Shown here: positions 20,889 through 50,586 of the stretch, one piece after another
Numbering within the stretch: the stretch's first letter is position 1
Layout of the letters: each line of letters opens with the position of its first letter
Source: a virus
IMG/VR virus record: IMGVR_UViG_3300046534_000186
Coordinates: 1 to 57,480 of that record
Length of the DNA stretch: 57,480 nt
Strand: one strand, 5' to 3'
Translations under genes and position numbers: made by a program
Notes under the pieces: generated by a model
The model's database searches: none
Told to the model about the DNA's origin: nothing
The model's input: the letters and a program-made list of their open reading frames with translations, nothing else

Positions 20889-21656
20889 ATGGCAACAGCA
20901 GAGAAGAAAGAAACAAACATTAAAACTATGCGTGATGTTATCTTCATGTACTCCTCAGTAAATCGTGCTGTCGAGCAGTTAAACACAGATAAGAAGCCTC
21001 CAATCAGTGCTCCTACATCTCCTACCTTTAACCTTGAGTTTCATTCATTTGAAATCAAGATACTTATTTCTGAAGCTAGATTTAAGAAAGAGCTTAAGAA
21101 GGAGTTCAAGGCCGCCAAGAACTTGCCACATGTCAAGGAAATGGAGAAAGATGATCTACTAGAAAAGTATGATTGCTTAAAAGCTGAAGACCTAGAAGAT
21201 GAAATGATCCTAGTTAAGTTTAGCCAGACTGCGTTAGTAGGTAAAGCTAATGCTGAAGGAGTTCGTAAGCAATCGTTTCCTATCAAGCAGATTGGTATTA
21301 AAGGTAAAGTTCAAGACCTAAACGGCTTACCTATTGACCAAGACACATCCCTTGGTAATGGCACAAAGGGTCACTTTCAATTTCGCCCTGTAGATGGCCC
21401 AAACGGTCAATACCTATACCCGCAGACAGTATGTGTTACTGAGCTGATTGAGTATGTTGGTGGTGGGGCAGAAGAAGATCTCGACTCGTTAGGTCTAGAA
21501 GACCTTGACGAAGCTGACATGGAAGCTGAAGCTTTTGACCAAGAAGCTGAAGCACAAGGAATTAAGGCACAAGAAGCTGAAGATGAACGATTAGCTGACC
21601 GAATAGCAAAAGAAGAAGCTGCACCAATGGACGATGATACAGGATCAATGTTCTAG
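20889..21656 (+). CDS. Single-stranded DNA-binding protein, gp2.5-like (255 aa)
   Basis: Called from overall design and place: N-terminal beta-rich domain (MRDVIFMYSSVNRAVEQL, FNLEFHSFEIKILIS), a basic helical segment (KKELKKEFKAAK), a second beta part and a long acidic C-terminal tail from about 195 ending DDDTGSMF. An acidic tail with terminal Phe is the hallmark of T7 gp2.5 and is how such proteins dock polymerase and helicase. It has its own leader and is followed by a terminator, consistent with high expression. Confidence 0.7.
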   Translation: MATAEKKETNIKTMRDVIFMYSSVNRAVEQLNTDKKPPISAPTSPTFNLEFHSFEIKILISEARFKKELKKEFKAAKNLPHVKEMEKDDLLEKYDCLKAEDLEDEMILVKFSQTALVGKANAEGVRKQSFPIKQIGIKGKVQDLNGLPIDQDTSLGNGTKGHFQFRPVDGPNGQYLYPQTVCVTELIEYVGGGAEEDLDSLGLEDLDEADMEAEAFDQEAEAQGIKAQEAEDERLADRIAKEEAAPMDDDTGSMF

Positions 21657-21703: not shown

Positions 21704-21718
21704 AATTTGGAGAAGTTT

Positions 21719-22624
21719 ATGTCTTTAGAAGACTTGGGGTTAATTGACTACGAGATAGTTGATAAGACCCTACACATAGATGGCGATATAGTCATCTACC
21801 AACCTTGTTGCGTATTTAACGAAGACGATGACCAGTCTCGTAGAATGATTGCTAAGTATGTAAACAAGAAAATCGACGACTTGATGACTGCTGCTGGGTG
21901 CAACTCCTACATTATGTTTGTTACTACTAACTTTAACTTCCGTAACCATTTAGTTGACGACTACAAAGCAAACAGAAGTGATAAAGATAAGCCTGTTAAT
22001 CTGGCATGGGCAAAGCAGTGGGGTGTTAAGAACTTAAACACTCACTATGTAAAGTGGCTAGAGGCTGATGATTTGCTTGGTATTTACCAAACAGAAGAGA
22101 CAGTTCTATGGAGTCTTGACAAAGACCTCAGACAAGTCAAGGGCTACCATTTAGATGATGCTACACAGAAAATTGTTAGTATCTCTGATAATGGGTCTCT
22201 TAAAAAGGAAGTTATATACAAGCCAGATGGAAGAATTAAGAAAACTAAGTATCATTTCACAGGCACAATTGGCCTATACTTCCAAATGCTATCTGGAGAC
22301 TCAACCGACTGGATTGTAGGTTGTGGTAAGAGAAACCCAAGGCCAGAAGGTAAGACTGTAAGAGCAGGAATAGGACAAGGCAAAGCCTACGACATCTTAA
22401 TGAAAGCTGGCAGCATAGAAGCAGGTCTGTTGGCAGTAGCTGACGAATATTGTAAATTACATAAGGGCAACTGGCAGAAAGAGTTAGAAACTCAAGCCAA
22501 CCTACTATTTATGGTTCGAGAAATCGATGGCAATATTATTAAAAGATGGACATTCGACAAGCGTGACGAGTATATGAACATTGTCACAGGAGAAATTACT
22601 GATGGCAATAGTAAGACTACTTAA
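21719..22624 (+). CDS. 5'-3' exonuclease, T7 gp6/FEN-type (301 aa)
   Basis: Removes RNA primers and resects DNA. The ATG at 21719 follows TTGGAGAAGTTT. Metal-binding residues lie in HIDGDIVIY (about 19-27), RNHLVDDYKANR, KWLEADDLLGIY and SLDKDLRQV; the helix-hairpin-helix-like region GIGQGKAYDIL lies near 230, after QMLSGDSTDWIVG. The length matches T7 gp6 (300). It overlaps the endonuclease gene. Confidence 0.88.
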   Translation: MSLEDLGLIDYEIVDKTLHIDGDIVIYQPCCVFNEDDDQSRRMIAKYVNKKIDDLMTAAGCNSYIMFVTTNFNFRNHLVDDYKANRSDKDKPVNLAWAKQWGVKNLNTHYVKWLEADDLLGIYQTEETVLWSLDKDLRQVKGYHLDDATQKIVSISDNGSLKKEVIYKPDGRIKKTKYHFTGTIGLYFQMLSGDSTDWIVGCGKRNPRPEGKTVRAGIGQGKAYDILMKAGSIEAGLLAVADEYCKLHKGNWQKELETQANLLFMVREIDGNIIKRWTFDKRDEYMNIVTGEITDGNSKTT

Positions 22625-22979
22625 AACTGCGGATGACATAAGTACCTATAGGAAAAGCAAGTCAGCACAGCAAAAGTTTAAGTGTCCAATTTGCAATGGC
22701 CCACTACAAACAGGTATAGCGTCAGCTCTAGACCACTCTCACAAGAATGGGAATTGCAGGTCAGTACTTTGTAGGTCTTGTAACGTAGGTGAAGGAAAAG
22801 TTTTAGCAGGGATGTTGTTTAGAACTACCAAGGCTAACTTAGCCTATAGAGATCCCGTAAAATGGCTAAGGAACTTAGCAAACTATATTGAGTATCATGA
22901 GTTAAACCCTAGCGGAGTAATTCACCCGACATTTGATATAAAAACTGGTAAGCAAAAGCCAGTCAAGCGGAGGAAGTAA
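22602..22979 (+). CDS. Recombination endonuclease VII-like HNH nuclease (125 aa)
   Basis: Resolves branched DNA before packaging. The chosen ATG has ACAGGAGAAATTACT before it. Zinc site CPIC ... CRSC and the HNH core LDHSHKNGNCRSVLCRSCN are complete (about residues 24-56), as in T4 gp49 and T7-group endonuclease VII proteins. The C-terminal part is basic and ends KPVKRRK. Gene order exonuclease-endonuclease is common in T7-like replication modules. Confidence 0.85.
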   Translation: MAIVRLLKTADDISTYRKSKSAQQKFKCPICNGPLQTGIASALDHSHKNGNCRSVLCRSCNVGEGKVLAGMLFRTTKANLAYRDPVKWLRNLANYIEYHELNPSGVIHPTFDIKTGKQKPVKRRK

Positions 22980-25575: not shown

Positions 25576-27417
25576 ATGATTCAACTTGATGGCGGCGTTA
25601 TATTGCCTGATGGAAAAGGTAAAGGGTTTGCCAAACCTGATGGGATTAGTCCTAACAAGTGGCAAACCATGAAACCTGAGATGTGGGAGAGGGCGTACTT
25701 ACATTGCCTGTATTCTCTACCAATACATTTCGACCTACCACTACACTCAGTAGTACCTCGGCTAGCCAAGAAAATGCTAGAAGCATCAGACCCTTTCAAT
25801 GTAGCCTTAAGGTTTATGGGAGAGATGGAGATAGCTGGCTATGTAGAGTTTGAGAGAGGTATGGATGAGAGAATAGTCCAACCAACTAAAAAGTTTCTAA
25901 GTCTGGATCTAGATTGTGAAAGAGCGCCTACCTCGGCCATAACCTTTCCTAAGATGATCGGGGAAGGAATACCTAGGTCGCCAATTAGAGGTGGGGTAAG
26001 GAGTGCTAAGAATGATGAGGTTGCTGACATAACTTCAGAGATTGCTAGCCAAGAGTTTGAAGTAAACCAGCACATGCTCGACCTAACAACTGAGTTCCCT
26101 CCTCAGTTTGATAAAACTTCTTCAGCTTATATGTATAAGAGAGCTATGAAGTCTTCTAAAACCTTAGGAAGCAGGAGGTTTAGATTTCCTTATTTCCTAG
26201 ATAGTAGATCAAGGACTTACACTGATACTACTTGCGGAATAACTCCTCAGGGAGCTGACCATGAGAAGGCTTTGGTAATACCTACCTACGCTGAGAAGCT
26301 TACACCTTCAGGATTGATAGCACTAATAGAAGCTGCTAATGGCTACTCCGAACTAGACTTTACTCAAGAAGACATGTGTAGGCATATCAATGATCCCAAA
26401 GGCTACCACCATGAATGGTCTAAGTCTGATAAGCCATACTCGTACCTTGCATGTGCAGCCCTCGTATACAGACACTCAAAAGATCCTAATGAGCCATTGC
26501 CAGCATTCAAACCTTTAGATGGTCGATGCTCAGGGCTACAACATTGGTCTGCTGTAGTTCGCTCAAACGCGATTACACGCCATCTGGGGATGCATATAGA
26601 TGAGGCTGACTTGGACATCTATGAGAAGGTTGCGGCTGACTGGAGAGAAACGCTTGAACCTGAGTGGCAGTATTTGGCTACTAGAAAAGCGGCCAAGATT
26701 CCTGTTATGACATGGGGATATAATGCTACTATGATGACTTCGATGGAGCATATAGGAAAACTATATGGGGCAAAGTCTAAATGGGATGATAATATCCAAG
26801 CGTATGTCACTGATGGTAAGGGACTAGAGAGGGGTGTCACGAGCAAGTTCGGGGCTCAGATATACAGACAGTTGCAAGATACTTTAGGCCCACTGCAAGG
26901 CGCTGTGAGCTGGGTGAGTGATTGTGCAGTACTAATATCTAAGATAGGTAATGTAGAAATACGATGGCCTACTCCTGATGGTTTTACCTGTATGCAACGT
27001 AAGGTCAAAGGAGAGACTAAAGATCTTGCTTGCACTCTATCAGATGACAGCAGGTTTCAATTAGACATACTAGACTTCTCCAAAGATACTCCCAACACTG
27101 GTAAGCACAGGTCAGCAATAGCACCTAACATAATCCATTCGCTAGACGCTACACATCTAAGGATGGTGGCTAGAAGGTTGAAGGAGTTAGGTTTGCCTAT
27201 GATATTTATACATGACTCATTCGCTACACATTGTAATCATGAACAAGCATTGTATGATATTATTGTTGATACCTTTATAGAACTGTACAGCATGGATTAC
27301 TTGCAAGACCTTAAGAAGTATTGGGAAGAACTATATGGGGTCGAGTTGGATGATCCTCCAGAGCTGGGCGAATGGAAGCCCGAATCTATAAGAGGTCTTA
27401 AGCGATTCTTTCTATGA
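25576..27417 (+). CDS. T7-like single-subunit RNA polymerase B (613 aa)
   Basis: Phage transcription enzyme. Motifs in order: T/DxxGR as DSRSRTY (Asp209, Arg213); A as LDGRCSGLQHW (catalytic Asp315); B as R370-KAA-K374-IPV-M378-TWG-Y382-N383; C as HDSF (Asp547). APNIIHSLDATHL precedes motif C as in T7. It is about 270 residues shorter than T7 RNAP, mostly before the T/DxxGR motif, so much of the N-terminal promoter-binding domain is missing. The usual Gly after the motif B tyrosine is Asn. It lies at the end of the replication block, followed by a terminator, and probably drives late genes (inference). Confidence 0.92.
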   Translation: MIQLDGGVILPDGKGKGFAKPDGISPNKWQTMKPEMWERAYLHCLYSLPIHFDLPLHSVVPRLAKKMLEASDPFNVALRFMGEMEIAGYVEFERGMDERIVQPTKKFLSLDLDCERAPTSAITFPKMIGEGIPRSPIRGGVRSAKNDEVADITSEIASQEFEVNQHMLDLTTEFPPQFDKTSSAYMYKRAMKSSKTLGSRRFRFPYFLDSRSRTYTDTTCGITPQGADHEKALVIPTYAEKLTPSGLIALIEAANGYSELDFTQEDMCRHINDPKGYHHEWSKSDKPYSYLACAALVYRHSKDPNEPLPAFKPLDGRCSGLQHWSAVVRSNAITRHLGMHIDEADLDIYEKVAADWRETLEPEWQYLATRKAAKIPVMTWGYNATMMTSMEHIGKLYGAKSKWDDNIQAYVTDGKGLERGVTSKFGAQIYRQLQDTLGPLQGAVSWVSDCAVLISKIGNVEIRWPTPDGFTCMQRKVKGETKDLACTLSDDSRFQLDILDFSKDTPNTGKHRSAIAPNIIHSLDATHLRMVARRLKELGLPMIFIHDSFATHCNHEQALYDIIVDTFIELYSMDYLQDLKKYWEELYGVELDDPPELGEWKPESIRGLKRFFL

Positions 27418-33457: not shown

Positions 33458-33473
33458 CTAAAGAGAGGCAAAG

Positions 33474-34808
33474 ATGGCAGATGATAATAGCCAATCCGTG
33501 ACTAGAATTAAAAAGTCTCGGAACAACCCTCATAGTCTTTACGATGGTCTATCCAACCTAGCTACAGGACTAGGAGGTGCTAAAGATAAATCAACATTTA
33601 ATAGGTGGGATCATTCAGGTGCCAACTATGACCATGTTGCTTTGTCTGTACGGTATAGGGAAGATTGGTTGAGCCAAAAGGTCTGCCAGATTGTACCTCA
33701 AGATATGACAAGAGAGTGGAGAAACTTTGAATCAGATGAGGCTAAAGAAGCTGATGAGGATTTTGAAGTTGCAAAACTGTTTCGTGAAGCCTACAAATGG
33801 GCAAGGTTGTATGGTACATCATTTATTATATTAGATATTGATGATGGACGTACAACAGACAAGCCAGTAAATTGGAAAAACCTAAAGCTAGGATGTATAC
33901 GATCAATGCATGTAGTTGATAGGACTCGTATAGTAGCTACAGGTGACATTGACCAAAAACCAATGAGTGTTACTTTTGGGATGCCTGACCACTATCAATT
34001 TGTACAAAGCCCAACTCCTATTCATAAAGATAGGCTTATACGTTTTGAAGGTACAGAGCTACCTGTGTATGAAAGACAAAGAAATTTGTGGTATAGTGAT
34101 AGTATACTTATACCTTTACTAAAACAGATCGACAACTTTCATACTACTAGTTTTGCTGCGGCCCAGATGGTGCAGGAAGCTAATATTGACATTATTAAAG
34201 TAGATGGTTTAGCTAACATACTTGAGTCTGACCAAGGCACTTCGGCCATGATCCAAAGGTTTTCTGATTGGAAGTCTATCAAGTCAGTGTTCGGTGTATC
34301 TATACTTGATAGTACTGAAGAGTACGACCAAAAGACTGTTCAGCTCTCTGGAGTTAAAGACCTTATTTGGGAGTACTTAAAGATGGTGTCTGCTTCTGTC
34401 TCAATACCTGCTACTCGTTTTCTTAGTGCATCACCTGACGGTATGAACGCTACTGGAGAATCTGACCTAGTAAACTACATTGAGACATTACAGGGACTAC
34501 ATAAGGATATATTTGTACCAAGGCTTAAGATTATAGATACCTTACTAGCTGCACATTATGGGTTAGAAGAAGAGAAACTTAAGTATAGTTGGGGATGTAT
34601 CTTTCCAGAGTCTGCTGGACAAAAAGCTGTTCGTGAGAAAGATCATGGAGAGTTTATATGTAGGCTAGTTGAATCAGGTGTCTTAGACACTGAATCTGCC
34701 CTAGCTGAAATGCAAACTAAGGGAGGCATAAGTAAAGATGCTAAAACTGGGATTAACCCAAATGAAGTCAAATTAAAATCAGGAGACAAGAATGTTAAAA
34801 GCACATAA
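33474..34808 (+). CDS. Portal protein, DUF1073-type (444 aa)
   Basis: Forms the dodecameric DNA gate of the head. Signs: an N-terminal basic stretch followed by DGLSNLATGLGG, the family segment QKVCQIVPQDMTREWRNF near 65-82, KWARLYGTSFIILDI, the helix QIDNFHTTSFAAAQM and a C-terminal ATRFLSASPDGMNATGESD segment close to the DUF1073 clip/stem region. The size fits. It overlaps the protease gene by 17 bases. Confidence 0.85.
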   Translation: MADDNSQSVTRIKKSRNNPHSLYDGLSNLATGLGGAKDKSTFNRWDHSGANYDHVALSVRYREDWLSQKVCQIVPQDMTREWRNFESDEAKEADEDFEVAKLFREAYKWARLYGTSFIILDIDDGRTTDKPVNWKNLKLGCIRSMHVVDRTRIVATGDIDQKPMSVTFGMPDHYQFVQSPTPIHKDRLIRFEGTELPVYERQRNLWYSDSILIPLLKQIDNFHTTSFAAAQMVQEANIDIIKVDGLANILESDQGTSAMIQRFSDWKSIKSVFGVSILDSTEEYDQKTVQLSGVKDLIWEYLKMVSASVSIPATRFLSASPDGMNATGESDLVNYIETLQGLHKDIFVPRLKIIDTLLAAHYGLEEEKLKYSWGCIFPESAGQKAVREKDHGEFICRLVESGVLDTESALAEMQTKGGISKDAKTGINPNEVKLKSGDKNVKST

Positions 34809-38995: not shown

Positions 38996-39543
38996 GTACT
39001 AACAACGTAATACTTCATGAGTCTGATGTACAAATAATACAGACTTTCATAGATACTATGGTAGGTATACCTAAATACTCCTACCCTGCGCGGCAGAACA
39101 GTGCGCCTAAACCTAAAGGGGACTTTGCGCATATTAGACTGTTAGAAGAGTACCAAGTAGGAATACCTCACACAAAAGTTTTTGCTTCAGATGAAAATAC
39201 TACCACTTACAGGATCTACAGCCCAACAAGGTTGAGGTTCCGTATAGGTCTTGTTGATACTAATGGTCTAGCTTCTGCAAAAATAATGCATAGCTGGACT
39301 ACTGAAGTCATGAGAACTCTAATGATTTCCTCTAAGGTTGGATTTATTAAGTGTGATCCTCTATCAAATGAAAGTGCAAAACTAGAAAAAGAATGGGAGA
39401 CTCGTCAAGGGTTCTCCTTAGAAGTATATAAGACACGCGTATTCGAGGAAGTAGTGAACAACATTACATCTTTATCAATATCAGGAAGTTTTATTTCTGG
39501 TGATAGTACTTACCTTCTCGACTTCGACATTAACAATATCTAA
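38992..39543 (+). CDS. Tail terminator/neck protein (183 aa)
   Basis: Resembles the 'neck terminator protein gp12-like' family of BcepMu/Bcep781-type phages: SDVQIIQTFIDTMVG at the start, YSYPARQNSAPKPKGDFAHI, a strand-rich middle and VGFIKCDPLSNESAKLEKEW. It would cap the tail tube and join it to the head. The end of its frame overlaps only untranslated bases before the sheath gene. Confidence 0.7.
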   Translation: MSTNNVILHESDVQIIQTFIDTMVGIPKYSYPARQNSAPKPKGDFAHIRLLEEYQVGIPHTKVFASDENTTTYRIYSPTRLRFRIGLVDTNGLASAKIMHSWTTEVMRTLMISSKVGFIKCDPLSNESAKLEKEWETRQGFSLEVYKTRVFEEVVNNITSLSISGSFISGDSTYLLDFDINNI

Positions 39544-39556
39544 CAAAGGAACAATT

Positions 39557-41041
39557 ATGGCGATTGAAATTACTGAATTCACCAATGTCTCTATATCAGT
39601 CTCGCCTGTTGGTGTAGCTGGTGGAAACTTTGGCATCTTAGGATTCCTTACTGTAAACACAGACCTAGCGGTTGCTGGTAAAAGTATTACTCCTGCTGAA
39701 CGAGCTAGGTCTTACACAAGTCTAGCTACTGTAGGTGGCGACTGGCAAGCTGGCTCTGAAGTGTATAAAGCTGCAAATGCTTTCTACGCGCAAACCCCTA
39801 CACCAACAGACTTTACTGTACTTATGTCTTTCGAGACTGCACAGAAAGCTAGCCTGATTGGTGGTGGTACTCTTACTGCTATTGAAATGATAGCTGCCGA
39901 AGGTGCTTGGAGCGATCAAGATTTTACTATGACTATTGATGGAGTAGATGTAATTATCAATGATCTAGCAATATCTGGTGGAGATGCTACTTTTGATGGC
40001 ATTGCTACTGAGCTACAGAGTGCTATCGTAGCAGCAGGCGCGACAGCAACAGTCACGCACAATGGTTATCAGTTTATAGTTACTGGAAACACCTCAGGTT
40101 CTTCTGGGGCAATTACCTTTGCATCAAGTACTGACGCAGCACTAGCCCTTGGCTTAACTGCTTCTTCAGCTAAACTAAGCCAAGGCTTAGACGTTGAGAC
40201 TGCTGTTGAAGGTTTGGCTGCTAATTTAACAGCAGGCAAGGAATGGATTGGATTGGTAACACACCGTAAATTCCGTGACTACACAGGCGGGGCATTTGGC
40301 TCTGGCCAATCTGCGGAAGACATTGGTGTGTGGGCTGAAGGTGCTAAGAAGATATTTTGCAACACCACCAACGACTTAACTACCCTTACCTCTGGTGCGA
40401 CAAACACAGCCAGCGCTATGAAAGGTAGAACTTTGAGATTTTCTCTTACTACCTTTAGCCGTGACGTATTATCTTATCCAAGTGCATCTATCTTTGGTAG
40501 AGCAGCTTCTGTAAACTTTTCAGCTATTGGTAGCACCATTACCCTTAACTTGAAGCAGATGCCTACCGTTGCTTCTGAAGATTTGACTCCTTCTGAATAT
40601 GCTAACATGAAGTCTTACTTCTGTTCAGCCGTAGTACAGATAGGTAAGTCTGTCAATGCCTTTACTGACTCTCGCATGGCCTCCGGTTCATGGCTTGATA
40701 CTACTCATGGTTTGATGTGGTTAGAGAATCGTGCTGAAGTTGATATGTTTAACTTGCTTTATGTGAACAACACTAAGGTTCCTTATACTCAGGTTGGACT
40801 GAATACTGCTATTGGCACTCTTAGACGTAGCTTAGAGGCTGCCGTTCGTAATGGACTGGCAGGCCCAGGCTACCTACCCGATGGTACGTACCTTGCCGAT
40901 GGCTTCTCTATTTCGGCTGTATCTTTAGCGGACACTCCGTCTAGTGATAAAGGTAATCGACTGTACGCTGGCCTTTCTTTTAAGATGGTTGGTGCTGGTG
41001 CATTGCATGAAATTACCGTTTCTGGTAGCTTCTCCGAGTAA
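39557..41041 (+). CDS. Tail sheath protein, DUF3383-type (494 aa)
   Basis: Contractile sheath. I use the ATG at 39557 (AAAGGAACAATT before it); the frame continues upstream over the previous gene. It begins MAIEITEFTNVSISVSPVG, typical of DUF3383. The middle holds an Ig-like or inserted beta region (about 120-220, TIDGVDVIINDLAISGGDAT). The C-terminal domain has LGTLRRSLEAA-type sequence (AIGTLRRSLEAAVRNGLAGP) and PDGTYLADGF. It confirms myovirus morphology. Confidence 0.85.
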   Translation: MAIEITEFTNVSISVSPVGVAGGNFGILGFLTVNTDLAVAGKSITPAERARSYTSLATVGGDWQAGSEVYKAANAFYAQTPTPTDFTVLMSFETAQKASLIGGGTLTAIEMIAAEGAWSDQDFTMTIDGVDVIINDLAISGGDATFDGIATELQSAIVAAGATATVTHNGYQFIVTGNTSGSSGAITFASSTDAALALGLTASSAKLSQGLDVETAVEGLAANLTAGKEWIGLVTHRKFRDYTGGAFGSGQSAEDIGVWAEGAKKIFCNTTNDLTTLTSGATNTASAMKGRTLRFSLTTFSRDVLSYPSASIFGRAASVNFSAIGSTITLNLKQMPTVASEDLTPSEYANMKSYFCSAVVQIGKSVNAFTDSRMASGSWLDTTHGLMWLENRAEVDMFNLLYVNNTKVPYTQVGLNTAIGTLRRSLEAAVRNGLAGPGYLPDGTYLADGFSISAVSLADTPSSDKGNRLYAGLSFKMVGAGALHEITVSGSFSE

Positions 41042-41080: not shown

Positions 41081-41572
41081 ATGTATCAATATAGTTTTGC
41101 TAACGTAGACCTGATTTTAGAAGCAGACTACCCAGGCCGAGATCCTGCTTACCCTGACACGTTCAAGGTTACTGGATTCACAACAGGTGAGAACCTAATT
41201 ACTGCTGTACGTAGAGCGCCTATTGCTACCACCACTTTTGGTGCGTATGGTGATATGGTAGTTAACATGCAACGCATCAGAGCTGGTGACTTATCGTTTC
41301 CAGTCCTAATGAACTCTCCTGAAAATGCCTACCTACAGGATTGGGCTAACTACTTTCAACAGCAAGCTGACGCTGATGGGCAGCTCATTACTCCTATTCA
41401 AGCTTCGCTAGTTGATAACATGGGTAATGATACTGTTAGTATGAAGAATGGTGTAATCCTAGCTATGCCTGCTATGACTCGTGGTCAAACTATGAGCACC
41501 AATACATGGGTAGTTACATTTGAAACCATGAAGATTGATAGAAAACCTGGTGGTGACATCGAAGAACTATAA
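41081..41572 (+). CDS. Tail tube protein, DUF3277-type (163 aa)
   Basis: Inner tube of the contractile tail. It follows the sheath gene, and the pattern YSFANVDLILEADYPG, AVRRAPIATTTFGAYGDMV and a C-terminal TWVVTFETMKIDRKPGGDI fits the DUF3277 tube family. The length is as expected. A strong terminator follows, consistent with high expression. Confidence 0.8.
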   Translation: MYQYSFANVDLILEADYPGRDPAYPDTFKVTGFTTGENLITAVRRAPIATTTFGAYGDMVVNMQRIRAGDLSFPVLMNSPENAYLQDWANYFQQQADADGQLITPIQASLVDNMGNDTVSMKNGVILAMPAMTRGQTMSTNTWVVTFETMKIDRKPGGDIEEL

Positions 41573-41648: not shown

Positions 41649-42023
41649 TTGAAAGAAAGCTACAAAGGAAACCTGTCCGATGGACGACCAATTTATATTC
41701 CAAGCTGGCCTGCTACAGTTCAGTTTGAAAACTTAACCCAAGTATGTAAATACCTTGGACAAGATAACGTAGTTGAAATATCAGCCCTAAATGTACCAGC
41801 CGCTATGGTTGCCGTCATGGGTTCTGATGATTATAAGGCTAGCACAGACCTAATGATGCACTTCATTAAGCAAGCTAGGTTAGACGGTGAGAAGCTCACT
41901 GAAAAGAATATAGAAGATATGGAAATGGATATCTTAATAGAACTATTTACTCATGTTATGTACTCGCAGTTCAACTCTTTTTTCGTATTAGGTTTAGCAA
42001 AGGTTCCTTACCAGCCCAAGTAG
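41649..42023 (+). CDS. Tail assembly chaperone, unshifted product (124 aa)
   Basis: TTG start after GGAGAACTAAG. Position between tube and tape measure and the two-frame arrangement identify it as the G-type chaperone. The N-terminal part carries DGRPIYIPSWPATVQFENL and LIELFTHVMYSQF. Near its end lies the slippery heptamer T-TTT-TTC at 41978-41984. Confidence 0.75.
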   Translation: MKESYKGNLSDGRPIYIPSWPATVQFENLTQVCKYLGQDNVVEISALNVPAAMVAVMGSDDYKASTDLMMHFIKQARLDGEKLTEKNIEDMEMDILIELFTHVMYSQFNSFFVLGLAKVPYQPK

Positions 42024-42255: not shown

Positions 42256-45200
42256 ATGGATGACGATGTAGCAGATCAGACAGAGAGAGAATACTCTGGT
42301 GAAAACGTAGAACAAGACTACACTGGAGGAACTCAAGCTTCATGGAATGAAAGAGGTCTAAGTAATGAAGACTTTGATAACTCTATATCTGGTCAAATGG
42401 ATCTTAGGGAAGAAGGAGATGATCTTGCCGATGCCATTCTTGGTTTAAGTAATGTAGAAGCTAAAGATTCCTTTATAGGAAATGCTGACCTAATAACCTC
42501 AGAGACTAATGAGTTAGAAAGATTCTCTCACATGAGCGAGAGTGTGAAGAAGGCAGCAGTTGAAGTTTTAGAAGCACAAACACAACACTTGTCAGGAAAG
42601 GCTTTGGTAGTTGCTAAAGCATCCTATGAGGCTGCCTTGGGCAAGAGTTCTGACCAATTTATTAAGGGACTAAATGTACAAGCAACCTCCCCTGTAACAA
42701 CATTAGACCCTACATCTTTCTCTATGAAGGCTGTGATGAAAGATGGCAAGATAGTATACAGGGCCGAGCAAAATAGGATTAAGCCATACAGAGACTCCTT
42801 CATAGCACAATCATTAAGTATTGGTTATGATACTGAAGGAAAATTTGACCCAATAGAGTTGGATAGTGGTTATAGTATTACAGGTAATGTAGAGCAAGAT
42901 ATAGGGGAAAACGAAAAGGAAGAACTTATAGAGGTCTTTAACCAAACAAAGTTAATAAACCAACCAAACATAATAGGATCTTTTGAGCCAAAAGCAAGTA
43001 AGCAAGATGTAATGGTTGCTAGGTCTATGCTAGAATCAGTAGAGTCCTACGAGGCTAGGGGGCCAGGATCTCAAGTATCAGGTAACTATGACTCAAATAT
43101 AAAAGTTGGAGTCGGTGGCAGCATAGAAGGGTTTTATGATGATGCTTTCGATAAGAATAGTGAGGAAGACAAGAAACTTAATAGAGGCTCTAAAGATAAA
43201 AGAGTAAAAGCTGATCTAGATTTTGCTTTAGCTATGGCTAACATTAGTGACCTTGCCGAACTGTATATAGACCCTAGAGCAAAAGGTGGGGAGATGTATG
43301 GTAAGCAGAAGGCAGCAGTAGAACTTGCGCTAATAAAAAGGTTTATTGATGGTCAAATGTCTGACGAAGCTAAGTCTATTCTACCACTTCCAAATGAGAC
43401 TGGAGTAACTGGACTAAGAGTCACTAGAGGATCTATAGGAGGACAACAAGGAACACCATTTACTCGGCTGGAGTTTGGCTTAGAAGCAAATAAAAGAGGT
43501 TGGACTCCTGAAGGTAAGTACCTAAAAGAAGGTGAAGAGAATCCTTATTGGAGATACTTAGGTACTGTTGGACAAAGCCTATTTCCTAAGAAGTTTGTTA
43601 AAGATGAATTTGGTGAAGAAGATGTTGAGGCTAATGCACTTAACACCAGAACCAGAAAGTATGAAGAGCAAGTGGCTTTAGACAAAGCTAGGGCTACTCG
43701 TAAGATACTTCTTGAGCAAATGCCAACCTTAAGAGATGAAACTGCTGGACAGTCCAGAACTCCAGGGTTTGATAAACCTTATGGAGATCAAGAAAATATT
43801 CAGCACATACTAGATAAAGTATTTGGTTCAGGTGAAGACTTAAAAGAGTTTACAGGTGACAATGGTTCAGAAATAAAAGAAGCCATTGAAGCAGGTAATG
43901 AAGCAATAGAGAGAGAACTTAACCTACCTATGAAAGATTTTGTAGGTCCAAGCAATTTGGAAGGTATAGAACAACGTACACCTGCATGGTACAAGGCTAG
44001 GGAAAACTTAATCACAGCATCAAAACTTACTAGTACTAGTGGTCAGTTACTAGACGCCGAAGGTATGGCTGCTCAGTTAGCTTTAGAAAAGTATGCTAAG
44101 ACCGACCCAGAATTAGCCAAAGAAATAGAGTTCATTGGTAACTCCCATGTAATAGATGGACAAAAGGGTGAGAAGCTAGCCCTTAAAGAATTCTTAATGA
44201 TGCAGAAGACTGAGGGAGATGAGCTTACTCATACTGAAGTAGGTTTGTTGCAGGCTGAAGAGATGCCAGGATTTGGTGCTTCTCCAGATGGTAGGCTTAG
44301 AGATCTTGAAGGTAATAACAGGGGCTTACTAGAACTAAAGTACTTAACTTCTGGCTCTATGAAAGGTGCCTTAAAGAAGTATACTCCACAGATGCAATTG
44401 CAGATGGCTGTTACTGGAGAAAAAGAAACAAACTTCTTTGCTCTTGATAAGTATACAGGAGAGTCTATACATGAAGTAGTGAAAGCTGACCCAGATATGC
44501 AAGCTGAAATACTTGAAGTAGGAAAACAAGCTTTAGAGATGTCAAAAACCTTAACTAAAGAGGAGGCTATAGAAATGAAGAAACAAACAAAAGCACAAAG
44601 AAGAAAGTCTAACCTTGAAGAAAGGAATGAGACAGGTAAAGGTCAAGAAAGTTCCTACGAAGCTAAAGATTATACAGACAATGAAGCCACTTCTTTTAAT
44701 GCAAATGAAGTAAACGAATCAAAAGAAAAGACTTTTAAGCGAGATAAGGCTAAGGCTTTAAATAGAGATTTTGAATCTATAGCTGCTATGAAAGAATTTG
44801 ATCAGTCTATTACCGAAGCTTCGGAAGCTGCTAAGAAGGAAGCTGCTAATAATAAAGCAGCAGCTAGAGCAACCAAGGACAGAGAAAATGCAGACAGGGA
44901 CGCAGCCAAAGCTACCCAGAAACTAAGGGATGCAGCAATAGGCGCAGCTAAGAGCCTGTTAGGTATAGTACTAAGTGCTAAAGATTCTGCTATGGACACT
45001 ATAAACTTAGCTCGTAGAAATGGATTTGATGAGGATGCAGTAAGAGGTCAAGAGTTTGCTATGGTTGCTGAAGGTGGAATACCTTTAAACGTAGCTAAAA
45101 GCGCAATAGATAATGCTGGGTCAACTCTAAGAAAGCTAAGGACTGGATCTACAGCAGGAGCTGAGCTGAGAAGGATGAACACTCAGTATGGGTCTACTCC

Positions 45201-46137
45201 AGAGATTTTAGATACTCTTGGCCCAATGAAATCTAGAAATGAGATTATTGCTATGGGGCAAGATTTCCTTCCCTTTGTGCAGGGAGAAATTAATAAGTTT
45301 CCTGTGGGAGATACGAACAGGGCTATTGTAGCAGAAGTCTATGGACAAAATTCTCAGTTAGCTGCTAGCACAGCCACTATGGAAGAAATGCTTATACCTA
45401 GAGCTATGAATGTTAAAGGAAATGAAGAGTCTAACCAAGGATACCAAAGTGTTAAGATGTATCTACAGGGTAAGGAAGAGAATCTAGTGGGGGAAGGTGG
45501 TAAAGCAGGAGGTGCAACCACTTACACTGCGGAGTACGCTAGGGATAGAGCCGACTTACTAGTGTGGATAAAGGAGAATCCTGTGATAGCCGCTTCCGCT
45601 GTTGTAGGGGGTGGACTAACTTTAGCTGCATACAACTTAGCTATGGGTAACAGCCCCGCAAAACCGCTACCTGAAGGTGGGGCGGGTGAGATGTTATCAA
45701 ACCGTGCCAAACTTAACTCAGTAGATGGACCTGTCTATGCTCCTGATCATGACATAAGCCAAGTAGGTGCAGTCACAGGATCGATGGCTAACTTCAATAT
45801 AGGTAAGTCTGGAGTCAAGTTACCCGAAAATAAAAACTCAGGAACTGGAGGTGAAGTGTCAGGAGTAAATAGCTTCTGGAATTCTGAAAATAATAACAGT
45901 AAGTTGCCTAGTGGTTTAAACTCTCCTCAGGATGGTAGTATTCCACTGTCTGACCTCGTGACACCTACAGCATTGCCTAACACTAACATTATTAAAGATA
46001 AGCAACCAATATCTATATCTACTGTAAATGAAAATAATGTTGATATACAGATCTTTAATGACAAAGATAGTACTGAAGTTAGAGCTACAGTTGGTGAAGA
46101 TGAATATGTAAATAGGGAGAACGGTAATTCAACTTAA
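42256..46137 (+). CDS. Probable tape measure protein with embedded lambda-exo/YqaJ-type nuclease domain (1293 aa)
   Basis: It is the only long gene between the chaperone and baseplate genes, so should be the tape measure. Residues 1-560 are charged and helical. Residues about 570-790 form a PD-(D/E)XK exonuclease domain with all motifs: QRTPAWYKAR...ITAS (573-590), GxxxE-like Glu639, SPDG with Asp678, ELK with Glu693 and Lys695 and QMQLQ (Gln712-Gln716). Then a Lys/Gln-rich segment, an Ala/Lys/Glu coiled coil (about 850-905), and a hydrophobic segment (about 1109-1130, IAASAVVGGGLTLAAYNLAMG-like) before a Ser/Asn-rich tail. Tail-tube passage into the host could deliver the nuclease; alternatively it acts in tail assembly or DNA ejection. 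ATG after TAGGAGTTCCT. Confidence 0.8.
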   Translation: MDDDVADQTEREYSGENVEQDYTGGTQASWNERGLSNEDFDNSISGQMDLREEGDDLADAILGLSNVEAKDSFIGNADLITSETNELERFSHMSESVKKAAVEVLEAQTQHLSGKALVVAKASYEAALGKSSDQFIKGLNVQATSPVTTLDPTSFSMKAVMKDGKIVYRAEQNRIKPYRDSFIAQSLSIGYDTEGKFDPIELDSGYSITGNVEQDIGENEKEELIEVFNQTKLINQPNIIGSFEPKASKQDVMVARSMLESVESYEARGPGSQVSGNYDSNIKVGVGGSIEGFYDDAFDKNSEEDKKLNRGSKDKRVKADLDFALAMANISDLAELYIDPRAKGGEMYGKQKAAVELALIKRFIDGQMSDEAKSILPLPNETGVTGLRVTRGSIGGQQGTPFTRLEFGLEANKRGWTPEGKYLKEGEENPYWRYLGTVGQSLFPKKFVKDEFGEEDVEANALNTRTRKYEEQVALDKARATRKILLEQMPTLRDETAGQSRTPGFDKPYGDQENIQHILDKVFGSGEDLKEFTGDNGSEIKEAIEAGNEAIERELNLPMKDFVGPSNLEGIEQRTPAWYKARENLITASKLTSTSGQLLDAEGMAAQLALEKYAKTDPELAKEIEFIGNSHVIDGQKGEKLALKEFLMMQKTEGDELTHTEVGLLQAEEMPGFGASPDGRLRDLEGNNRGLLELKYLTSGSMKGALKKYTPQMQLQMAVTGEKETNFFALDKYTGESIHEVVKADPDMQAEILEVGKQALEMSKTLTKEEAIEMKKQTKAQRRKSNLEERNETGKGQESSYEAKDYTDNEATSFNANEVNESKEKTFKRDKAKALNRDFESIAAMKEFDQSITEASEAAKKEAANNKAAARATKDRENADRDAAKATQKLRDAAIGAAKSLLGIVLSAKDSAMDTINLARRNGFDEDAVRGQEFAMVAEGGIPLNVAKSAIDNAGSTLRKLRTGSTAGAELRRMNTQYGSTPEILDTLGPMKSRNEIIAMGQDFLPFVQGEINKFPVGDTNRAIVAEVYGQNSQLAASTATMEEMLIPRAMNVKGNEESNQGYQSVKMYLQGKEENLVGEGGKAGGATTYTAEYARDRADLLVWIKENPVIAASAVVGGGLTLAAYNLAMGNSPAKPLPEGGAGEMLSNRAKLNSVDGPVYAPDHDISQVGAVTGSMANFNIGKSGVKLPENKNSGTGGEVSGVNSFWNSENNNSKLPSGLNSPQDGSIPLSDLVTPTALPNTNIIKDKQPISISTVNENNVDIQIFNDKDSTEVRATVGEDEYVNRENGNST

Positions 46138-47086
46138 ACAAAAAGTATTTCTGGAAGTTTGGGATGCTCAAGAAGGAGGCAATCTAATACTAGATGCCTC
46201 TGGATTGCGTGTTGACTTTGATGTGAGGCATATACCTGATTTTAGCAGGGCTGCCTTTACTATCTATAACCTTAACAATGAAACTATAACAAGCCTTATG
46301 AGTGAAGGACTATACGTTACTCTAAAGGTTCAATTGCATGATGGAAATATTCAGCTATTAGCTAATAAGTTTTATATAAACAATGCAGTAGATGAGCTTG
46401 TTCTACCTAACCGTATTACAACTCTTTACTGTTTTGACAGGCTACGCTCTACATTTCTTGAAAGACAAGTGTCTATACCAGTAGGGAACTACCCTAACCT
46501 TAAAGACATGATTGACTCTCTGCTAGTCAGGGCTGGGTATAACTCTTCTAGGGATGATGAATTTATAAGCTTTCCTGCTGGTAGGGTATACCAACCCTCT
46601 AAGAGGTCAACTAGATTGCTAAATGGTAGTGTGCAGCAGTGCCTTAGGAGGCTTGAGAAAGAATATAAATTCTACACATACACTAATAATGGTAGGCTTT
46701 TATTTAAGCACTTTCCTGATTTAGATACTGTTAGTAAAACTTCTCTACCTGACTCTCCTATAATAAAGCTTAGTACTCGCTCAATGAGGTCTACTCCTAA
46801 GATAGGTATAGCCTCTTGCACAATACATAGCAATCTAAATGGAGATATAACCACATCGTCAGTATTAGACTTATCTCAACTATTAACTATAGGTGTAGAT
46901 GAAAGTAAAGAAACTCTACTAGTAGTCGAGAACTACTTAAAGAACTTTTCTAATAATACTATATACCAAGCTTTTGCTATTACTCACACAGGGAGTAACT
47001 ATACAGCAGACTGGTCAACCCGTATAACAGGTCTATCACCAACACGAGGTAAGAGAATGCCTACGGGTGTTAGGTGGATGAACTAA
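46127..47086 (+). CDS. Baseplate hub protein, probable ATT start (319 aa)
   Basis: Hub protein of the gp27/Mu gp44-like type by order and by beta-rich sequence: LRVDFDVRHIPDFSRAAFTI with IYNL follows the usual 'hub N terminus' pattern. Clearly coding residues (IQLKQKVFLEVWDAQEGG) extend 26 codons upstream of the first standard start (TTG 46205), which has no ribosome site. The frame is closed by a stop at 46109-46111. The only good start is ATT at 46127, with AGGGAGA seven bases before it. It overlaps the tape measure gene by 11 bases. A +1 shift from the upstream gene or a sequence error are alternatives. Confidence 0.65.
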   Translation: MQLKQKVFLEVWDAQEGGNLILDASGLRVDFDVRHIPDFSRAAFTIYNLNNETITSLMSEGLYVTLKVQLHDGNIQLLANKFYINNAVDELVLPNRITTLYCFDRLRSTFLERQVSIPVGNYPNLKDMIDSLLVRAGYNSSRDDEFISFPAGRVYQPSKRSTRLLNGSVQQCLRRLEKEYKFYTYTNNGRLLFKHFPDLDTVSKTSLPDSPIIKLSTRSMRSTPKIGIASCTIHSNLNGDITTSSVLDLSQLLTIGVDESKETLLVVENYLKNFSNNTIYQAFAITHTGSNYTADWSTRITGLSPTRGKRMPTGVRWMN

Positions 47087-47098
47087 CTAGGAGGTACA

Positions 47099-48292
47099 AT
47101 GCCAACTGTAACACCAGCCTATATAATATATACACCTTTTGAAGGTGCAGAACAAGAAATACATTTTGACGCTGTTATCTCAGAAGACCATAAAACTCTA
47201 GCTGAAGTAACTAAGTTCCCTGTACAGACAGGCTTTCATGTAAGTAACCATTCAATAAGGAAGAATAGGCCAGTATCTTTAACAGGAATTATATCTAATG
47301 TAAAAATGGATCTTGGTGACTTTGAGCCTAAGACAAGGTATGGATCAGATCCTGCTTCGTACATTAAAGCTACTTTAGATTCAATAATACTATCTGGGCT
47401 AGTATGTAAAGTAGTAACTAACCTAGGAGACTACGACCCAGTAGTGTTTACCTCCTTTAGCACTAAGCAGAAATCTGGAATGGTTGACTCTATGGAGTTT
47501 ACTATATCTGGTGAAGAGATTGTGATAGACACTACAATAGGCTTCACAGCTCCTACACCCATCACTTTTACTAAGTTACAAGGTGATGAGAGGACTGCTT
47601 GGGTAGAGAGGTTAGAAGAGTCAGAAGTGTACATAGGTGTATGTGATGGGATATCAAAAGGTACATACAATAAAGGTCAAGACTTTGTAATATATGATGA
47701 GAATTCAGCAGGAGTTCCTGTTGAGACTAAGTATATATTTATAGGTATAGATCCTAGCTCTGGAGCAGAGATGTACGAAGTCCACATCAGTGAAAACTCT
47801 TGTGCTGTAGTGGGTGCTAGCTCATCTAGTGAAGTAAGTGTAGACTCTTGTTCCGAAGAAGGATTTAAGGGATCATTAATTGGTGGTATAAAGCAGATTG
47901 GTGGTTGCCTACTTGGGGAAGCCACTTCTATAGTACTAGATTCTGTAGAGAATACTATAGACACAGCTATGGGTAAGTTAGTTAAGAGTACACGAGGACT
48001 ATTCTATGATACTATAGAGTTTGCTGGTGGGCCTGACTCTATAGGTGGCATGATTACTAGCGCAGGTATTAGTTGTATAGTAAGAGGAGCCACTGGAAAT
48101 ACAGACCCAGGAACTTACAACCCAGGAGAATCCTTACCAACCACTGAACAAATCATGACAGGAGCAAGTGAAGGGCTAGGCTTTACTGAGCCACCACAGG
48201 AAGTAGTAACATTGATTCAAATAAGATGCGACTGCGGGGGTGAATCACAAACTGAAGAAATACCTACCTTGTTCCCTAATATTATAGGATAG
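47099..48292 (+). CDS. Baseplate protein with Dit-like N-terminal domain (397 aa)
   Basis: The N-terminal 190 residues, with IIYTPFEGAEQEIHFDAVI, TKFPVQTGFHVSNHSIRKN and LTGIIS, match the Dit-like tail protein pattern of Mu-group phages. The remaining half is Gly/Ser-rich with many cysteines (SENSCAVVGASSSSEVSVDS, later IRCDCGGES), perhaps holding disulfides or a metal. It lies between hub and spike genes. Ribosome site TAGGAGGTACA. Confidence 0.7.
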   Translation: MPTVTPAYIIYTPFEGAEQEIHFDAVISEDHKTLAEVTKFPVQTGFHVSNHSIRKNRPVSLTGIISNVKMDLGDFEPKTRYGSDPASYIKATLDSIILSGLVCKVVTNLGDYDPVVFTSFSTKQKSGMVDSMEFTISGEEIVIDTTIGFTAPTPITFTKLQGDERTAWVERLEESEVYIGVCDGISKGTYNKGQDFVIYDENSAGVPVETKYIFIGIDPSSGAEMYEVHISENSCAVVGASSSSEVSVDSCSEEGFKGSLIGGIKQIGGCLLGEATSIVLDSVENTIDTAMGKLVKSTRGLFYDTIEFAGGPDSIGGMITSAGISCIVRGATGNTDPGTYNPGESLPTTEQIMTGASEGLGFTEPPQEVVTLIQIRCDCGGESQTEEIPTLFPNIIG

Positions 48293-49437: not shown

Positions 49438-50586
49438 ATGGCAGGCTTAACTAGCGGAGGTTTCATACCAGAGACTTATGATGCAATTAAAGCTAGGATA
49501 GAGGGAAAACTAGAAATCCTTAATCCTGGCTTCGACTTCAGCCCAGAGTCTCCTGATGGACAAATTATAGGAGTAATGTCTTATGAGTTGTTTCAGGCTT
49601 GGTCTGAGCTTAATAAAGTATACAACAGTTACAACCCATCAGTAGCTACAGGAGCGGCGCTTAAAAACCTAGGTTTGATTACAGGGTTACTCTATGGTGC
49701 AGCAACCAAGTCTTCTGCTACGTTGGAAACACAAGGTACGGCAGGGACTATTATACCTGCACAATCCCTAGTAACAGACAATGATGGTAACGACTTCTAC
49801 ACTAGCTTCAATACAGCTATACCTAGTAACTTGCAGGTAGTGGCAGTGGTCGCTGGGATTATCCCAGTAGGTATAGGTTCTATATTAACTATTAAGACTC
49901 CCGTTTCTGGTTGGACAGGTGTTACACAAACTCAATCAGGTATTGAGGGAGTTTTGGCGCAAACTGAGCAACAGTATAGGAACACCAGACAAAGGACAGT
50001 TATGCGTAACCATTCCTCTATAGCTAGTAATATGCAAGCTAGACTCATAGAGCTTGGAGTGGATCAAGCTAATGTATTAAACAACACTAGCTCTGTTAAC
50101 CCGTTAGCAGATGGTACACCACCAAACACTGTTCACGTGACTGTGGGAGAGCTTGGAGCAGTTAGTCCTACTGATGTAGCCAATACCATACTAGCTTCAA
50201 ACTCAATGGGCTGCCCTACTTATGGCAATACCTCAGAGATTATTTTAGATAATGAAGGAGTTAGCCATGAAATATTCTTCTCTGTAGCAAGTGCTGTTCA
50301 AGTTCGTATTGAGGTTGATGTAACATACCTTAGCGAGAACACTCCTGGGGCAAGTCAGAGTATAGAAGATTCACTCTTTGACCACATTAATAGCCTTATT
50401 AGTGGAGATGATGTAATATGGTCTCGCTTGTTTGGCTACATTACACCTTTTGCTAAAGCACAAGTTAACAACTTAACAGTAGGTATTGTAGGAGGAGCGC
50501 AAGGAACTTCCAATGTAGTAATAAGCCCTAACGAGTTTGCTAACATAGATTCAGCTGAAATTGTGCTAACTGTGGATGGTGTCTAA
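49438..50586 (+). CDS. Baseplate J-like protein, Mu gp47-type (382 aa)
   Basis: I take ATG at 49438 over the upstream GTG at 49423, which overlaps the wedge gene. Signs: FIPETYDAIKARIEGKLEIL, SPDGQIIGVMSYELFQAWSE, AALKNLGLITGL and the central conserved NTVHVTVGE-like stretch; the C terminus includes ITPFAKAQVNNLTVGI. It is the wedge component that carries the fibres. One-base overlap with the next gene. Confidence 0.85.
   Translation: MAGLTSGGFIPETYDAIKARIEGKLEILNPGFDFSPESPDGQIIGVMSYELFQAWSELNKVYNSYNPSVATGAALKNLGLITGLLYGAATKSSATLETQGTAGTIIPAQSLVTDNDGNDFYTSFNTAIPSNLQVVAVVAGIIPVGIGSILTIKTPVSGWTGVTQTQSGIEGVLAQTEQQYRNTRQRTVMRNHSSIASNMQARLIELGVDQANVLNNTSSVNPLADGTPPNTVHVTVGELGAVSPTDVANTILASNSMGCPTYGNTSEIILDNEGVSHEIFFSVASAVQVRIEVDVTYLSENTPGASQSIEDSLFDHINSLISGDDVIWSRLFGYITPFAKAQVNNLTVGIVGGAQGTSNVVISPNEFANIDSAEIVLTVDGV

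Follow-up and report, generated by a model that had tools for sequence, protein, structure and literature searches.

A predicted lambda-exonuclease/YqaJ nuclease domain embedded in the putative tape measure protein of Chaseviridae and their uncultured relatives

The protein encoded in the tape measure slot of the window (the whole stretch of DNA analysed, 57,480 nucleotides of IMG/VR record IMGVR_UViG_3300046534_000186) contains, in the middle of its chain, a complete lambda-exonuclease/YqaJ domain, predicted from its sequence and modelled structure to be active. We consider it possible, with a probability of roughly 0.45, that this nuclease is brought into the cell by the tape and there attacks double-stranded DNA ends, those of the phage itself being the closest at hand. 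If this is true, the tape doubles as an enzyme that is injected and acts while the genome enters, raising the questions of what keeps the virion from cutting its own DNA, by what means a globular enzyme gets through the tail tube and what gets cut. Phages of E. coli K-12 (e.g. 'flopper', host MG1655) make the role of the nuclease directly testable.

The 1293-aa protein (42256-46137, plus strand), delimited by its ORF and by synteny, matched the Pfam YqaJ family (PF09588) over residues 578-722 (43987-44421, plus strand), with a score of 39.2 bits against a curated cut-off of 22 (E 1.1e-9). This was the sole YqaJ match in the Pfam scan of the genome. On the basis of Pfam, profile comparison and structure prediction, the whole PD-(D/E)XK domain extends over residues ~571-770 (43966-44565, plus strand). 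A profile of 27 relatives matched LHK-Exo (E 1.6e-27) and lambda exonuclease (E 1.2e-11). The AlphaFold model of residues 533-813 (mean pLDDT 85; 90-98 in the core, with low-confidence linkers on either side) contained the PD-(D/E)XK core, and its best PDB matches in Foldseek were lambda exonuclease and LHK-Exo (3sm4, 3sz4, 3slp and 1avq; probability 1.00). Viral YqaJ/exonuclease models, including two unnamed proteins of ~1230 aa, were recovered from BFVD.

The predicted catalytic residues Glu639 (44170-44172), Asp678 in the SPDG motif (44287-44289) and Glu693-x-Lys695 in the ELK motif (44332-44340), together with Gln712 and Gln714 of the QMQLQ motif (Gln712-Gln716, 44389-44403), all on the plus strand, were invariant in 71 fused copies (50 from IMG/VR and 21 from Chaseviridae) and in 27 stand-alone exonucleases; these residues and Gln716 were also invariant in 27/27 relatives. 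A sequence-only reading of this DNA had placed a lambda-exonuclease/YqaJ domain within the tape-slot protein and suggested comparing a predicted structure with lambda exonuclease. Pfam, profile, fold and conservation bear it out, and its residue numbers (E639, D678, E693, K695 and Q712-716) were exact. A chance motif match was ruled out by the profile, the fold and family-wide conservation, as every relative examined carries the domain, with the same residues, in the corresponding position. A decayed or purely structural domain was ruled out by the invariant catalytic residues and low dN/dS values, and a fusion created during sequence assembly by the recurrence of the fusion in dozens of independent contigs and in cultured genomes.

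The fusion is not a peculiarity of one genome, and the sequence-only reading, which had proposed a search for it elsewhere, was incomplete in this respect: it is an architecture shared by Chaseviridae and uncultured relatives. A search of IMG/VR with the sheath yielded 59 related loci, and the nuclease domain was found wherever a contig covered the tape slot. It was present in 35/35 distinct full-length tape-slot proteins (1131-1723 aa), in the same slot and with the same architecture as in the window, and always mid-chain, with its centre at 0.42-0.64 of the length. The domain search was bimodal, with fused proteins, either long or truncated by the end of a contig, in one group and stand-alone enzymes of 202-246 aa in the other, and no intermediates. 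Among cultured phages, sheath similarity led to Chaseviridae, and the domain was detected in 21/21 of the members examined, from both subfamilies. It scored above the Pfam cut-off in phiEcoM-GJ1 gp62 (E 4e-11), 4HA13, PP101, SppYZU05 and PAGF2, and slightly under it, with intact motifs, in VPs20 and PVN03. Queries with the domain retrieved Chaseviridae tape genes first, followed by a sharp drop to separate exonucleases; among the matches listed, no fusion was found outside Chaseviridae and their relatives. Prokaryote genomes gave one weak match to the domain. At one locus (L023), an apparent split of the nuclease from the N-terminal half was due to a frameshift near a homopolymer joining two ORFs. 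The domain was absent from two long ORFs (L067 and L075), but these lie just after the terminase and not in the tape slot; a domain-bearing tape gene (L097) is present on the same contig as L067.

Profile comparison showed the nuclease and C-terminal half to be colinear between the window lineage and the SppYZU05 group, and the SppYZU05 group to be colinear in turn with the GJ1 group. These colinear alignments suggest that a single ancient fusion is likely. A tree of fused and stand-alone domains was compatible with one origin, with weak support.

The domain shares its fold, its E-D-ExK-Q motifs and its whole length with lambda exonuclease, LHK-Exo and YqaJ (PF09588), but those enzymes are separate recombination proteins of ~200-245 aa, whereas here the domain occupies the middle of a tail protein whose length is 1131-1723 aa. 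Nucleases of the lambda-exonuclease type are usually encoded by separate genes paired with an annealing protein, an arrangement from which the window nuclease, fused within a tail gene, departs. Enzymes are likewise built into other tapes, such as the SLT transglycosylase of phiEcoM-GJ1 gp62 and muralytic domains elsewhere; to our knowledge, the enzymes known from tapes cut the cell wall, not DNA. The GJ1, 4HA13 and PP101 tapes carry both an SLT domain, near the C-terminus, and a YqaJ domain, whereas the window lineage lacks SLT, with no Pfam match to it in the window tape protein. The Chaseviridae tapes (phiEcoM-GJ1 gp62, PHROG 19855; SppYZU05 gp09, PHROG 149) share slot, size and embedded nuclease with the window protein, although the flanks have strongly diverged. 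Database labels for the fused gene vary, from exonuclease, yqaJ and putative endonuclease to, elsewhere, tail fiber and tape measure, and the name exonuclease is also given to PHROG 149, to which the SppYZU05 tape protein belongs. No paper describing a tape measure protein with an embedded nuclease was found in the open-access literature. Thus, enzymatic domains in tapes are known, but a family-wide DNA exonuclease in the tape is, as far as we have checked, new.

In the window lineage, the tape protein evolves fast and is best conserved in the nuclease, with a mean pairwise identity of 41%, versus 24% for the flanks (595 pairs). Values of dN/dS in the cassette ranged from 0.01 to 0.22. In the coliphages, the tape genes of MLP1 and TH28 were ~90-100% identical at the DNA level, except in codons ~410-690 (39-77%), whereas MLP1 and GJ1 shared 93-100% identity over codons 410-680 and 41-82% beyond; the remaining comparable tail and structural genes of MLP1 side with TH28. 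Judged from these alignments, the coliphage nuclease is exchanged as a cassette. Such exchange implies that the domain can function autonomously, as a module, and that substituting one allele for another is tolerated or favoured. The more diverged IMG/VR relatives showed no cassette swaps. No immunity or partner gene tracking the nuclease allele was found among MLP1, TH28, GJ1 and Bp7 (TH28 up to base 50000). The hallmarks of a polymorphic toxin, a variable C-terminal toxin domain and a cognate immunity gene, were not found: the domain is mid-chain, and no gene co-segregates with it in these four genomes. Two other regions of MLP1 differ sharply from the otherwise near-identical TH28: a 301-aa gene of no assigned function beside the SSB gene (L177:30750-31655) and the genes in the antirestriction position (33471-34248). 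Neither follows the nuclease allele.

The contig ends (1-177 and 57304-57480) overlap by 177 bp, with one mismatch, and the record, although classed as linear, is essentially a complete permuted genome of ~57.3 kb. The statement that the genome contains no other YqaJ nuclease is meaningful because of this completeness. The sequence-only reading had claimed that there was neither another such nuclease nor an annealing protein; the first part stood, as there is no second YqaJ, but a candidate gp2.5-like single-stranded DNA-binding/annealing protein (20889-21656, plus strand) gave a weak match to PHROG 112 (E 1e-5), with no Pfam match. This candidate, ~23 kb from the tape nuclease, adjoins a T7 gp6-like 5'-3' exonuclease (21707-22624, plus strand; PHROG 107, and 5_3_exonuc_N in the genome scan) and an endonuclease VII (22581-22979). 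The presence of the T7-like exonuclease and the gp2.5-like candidate makes a purely replicative role of the tape nuclease less likely.

During ejection, tape proteins precede the DNA out of the tail; double-stranded ends are what lambda-type exonucleases require. We infer delivery, refolding, activity and target as follows. Each virion would hold the nuclease within its tail tube, built into the tape, and the nuclease would pass into the cell directly ahead of the genome. It would then leave the tube, refold and act on double-stranded DNA ends. The nearest ends would be those of the phage itself, and resection of its terminal repeats would expose complementary single strands, which might be used for circularisation or annealing. 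The tape protein of 4HA13 (AC4HA13_0067, QEM43042), which carries the nuclease domain, was second among the top virion proteins listed by LC-MS/MS (PMC9699118), making delivery ahead of the DNA plausible. The DNA of Chaseviridae is linear and terminally redundant, with repeats of ~3 kb (PMC12842549). Against this reading, end resection may need no second enzyme, given the T7-like exonuclease already encoded in the genome. A tail tube of ~4 nm would, moreover, leave little room for a folded domain of 20-25 kDa, so the nuclease would have to be unfolded, staggered or at an end.

Exchange of the coliphage cassette is more in keeping with a target that diversifies than with fixed processing of the phage's own ends, and it is better explained if the nuclease is a delivered weapon, an injected effector directed against host DNA breaks or forks, plasmids, a defence element or a rival phage genome, with allele exchange reflecting an arms race over the target or its inhibitor. 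The replacement is precise, the other comparable structural genes of MLP1 follow TH28, and the active site is kept in each exchanged allele. We nevertheless regard such a weapon, which the sequence-only reading had proposed against host or competitor DNA, as rather unlikely, since intact circles and chromosomes would be poor substrates for an enzyme needing double-stranded ends, no immunity or partner gene co-segregated with the nuclease among the four genomes compared, and the more diverged IMG/VR relatives showed no swaps of this kind. Somewhat more doubtful still is the broader proposal that the tape is a vehicle for exchangeable DNA-active effectors, in which the nuclease would be injected first and swapped by recombination as its target, be it a host defence, a resident element or a rival phage, varies.

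The nuclease might instead act late within the infected cell, before assembly, in recombination, concatemer processing or host DNA degradation, and later be merely stored in the tail. Its gene is late and its product is made in the infected cell, and the nearest stand-alone relatives are recombination exonucleases encoded beside Erf or other recombination genes. Family-wide tethering of a replication enzyme to the tape would, however, be an odd choice, particularly as the replication block already contains the T7-like exonuclease and the gp2.5-like candidate. Furthermore, the nuclease is never terminal and never a separate gene, the apparent split at L023 being a frameshift. A late role before assembly thus seems distinctly unlikely to us.

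Action on the phage's own ends during entry must also be weighed against a DNA-holding function, in which the domain, inside the tail or as the DNA enters, would grip its leading end for packing, end protection or threading, with nuclease activity secondary. The ring of lambda exonuclease binds DNA ends, tapes are oligomeric and the domain occupies a constant central place in the chain. The strictly conserved metal-binding Asp, Glu and Lys residues nonetheless predict catalysis rather than just binding, rendering a primarily DNA-holding role improbable.

All these readings take the 1293-aa protein to be the tape measure, a positional call based on its place, size and helical content. The tail genes of this myovirus genome, all on the plus strand, are arranged in the order tail sheath (DUF3383; 39500-41041), KPP10 ORF10-like structural protein, the probable tail tube (41081-41572), tail assembly chaperone (41649-42023), 1293-aa protein, baseplate hub (46205-47086) and Dit-like tail protein (47099-48292). 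The gene order around the sheath, chaperone, tape and baseplate is shared with the related myoviruses KPP10 and Felix O1, but the tapes of these phages (Pfam TMP_3; 778 and 742 aa, respectively) have no nuclease and no detectable homology to the window protein, even in profile comparison; the nuclease is thus an addition to, not a requirement of, tape function. In the AlphaFold model of residues 806-1293, a helix of ~100 residues is followed by an all-alpha, tape-like region with pLDDT values of up to 98 (residues ~823-1081; 44722-45498, plus strand) and by C-terminal beta strands (residues ~1262-1289; 46039-46122, plus strand); no lytic domain was detected in the C-terminus by Pfam or as a PDB fold match. 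A stretch in the N-terminal half (residues ~150-240; 42703-42975) is present in only ~9-15% of relatives and constitutes a lineage-specific insertion. That the protein is another virion component, for instance one associated with the hub or an internal protein that is ejected, is very unlikely: it matches no Pfam tape family and older records call it tail fiber, but no other gene lies between chaperone and hub, the tail block holds no other tape candidate, its C-terminal half is predicted to be helical and several records say tape measure.

At the usual tape ratio of 0.15 nm per residue, 1239 residues correspond to 186 nm, or to ~140 nm without the nuclease and SLT. The tails of Chaseviridae measure 116-166 nm (PMC12842549). 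This arithmetic would fit a nuclease that does not itself serve as tape, and no more can be read from it. In MLP1, a 73-aa protein (gp58, L177:39216-39437) is annotated as 'tail length tape-measure protein'; the real slot is that of gp13, and the label of gp58 is very likely a misannotation.

The window displays the myovirus gene order, DUF3383 sheath, single-subunit RNA polymerase and genome size (near 52-57 kb) of Chaseviridae. The closest cultured phage is VPs20, with a sheath 39% identical to that of the window, and the window phage is treated here as a relative of Chaseviridae that perhaps lies outside the family. The recorded host of one member, Staphylococcus phage Pel53 (L166, PP952070), is Staphylococcus hyicus. 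This host label is doubtful, because the Pel53 tape protein shares 88% identity with its counterpart in Escherichia phage phiEcoM-GJ1 and the hosts of the family are Gammaproteobacteria. A second, divergent single-subunit RNA polymerase-like gene (719 aa) spans the contig junction (55695-57480, continuing at 1-551). It matches PHROG 414/2051 (E 2e-8 and 3e-10), with no Pfam match, and is barely similar to the main RNA polymerase (25576-27417). The Chaseviridae family profile lists one polymerase, versus two polymerase-like genes in the window.
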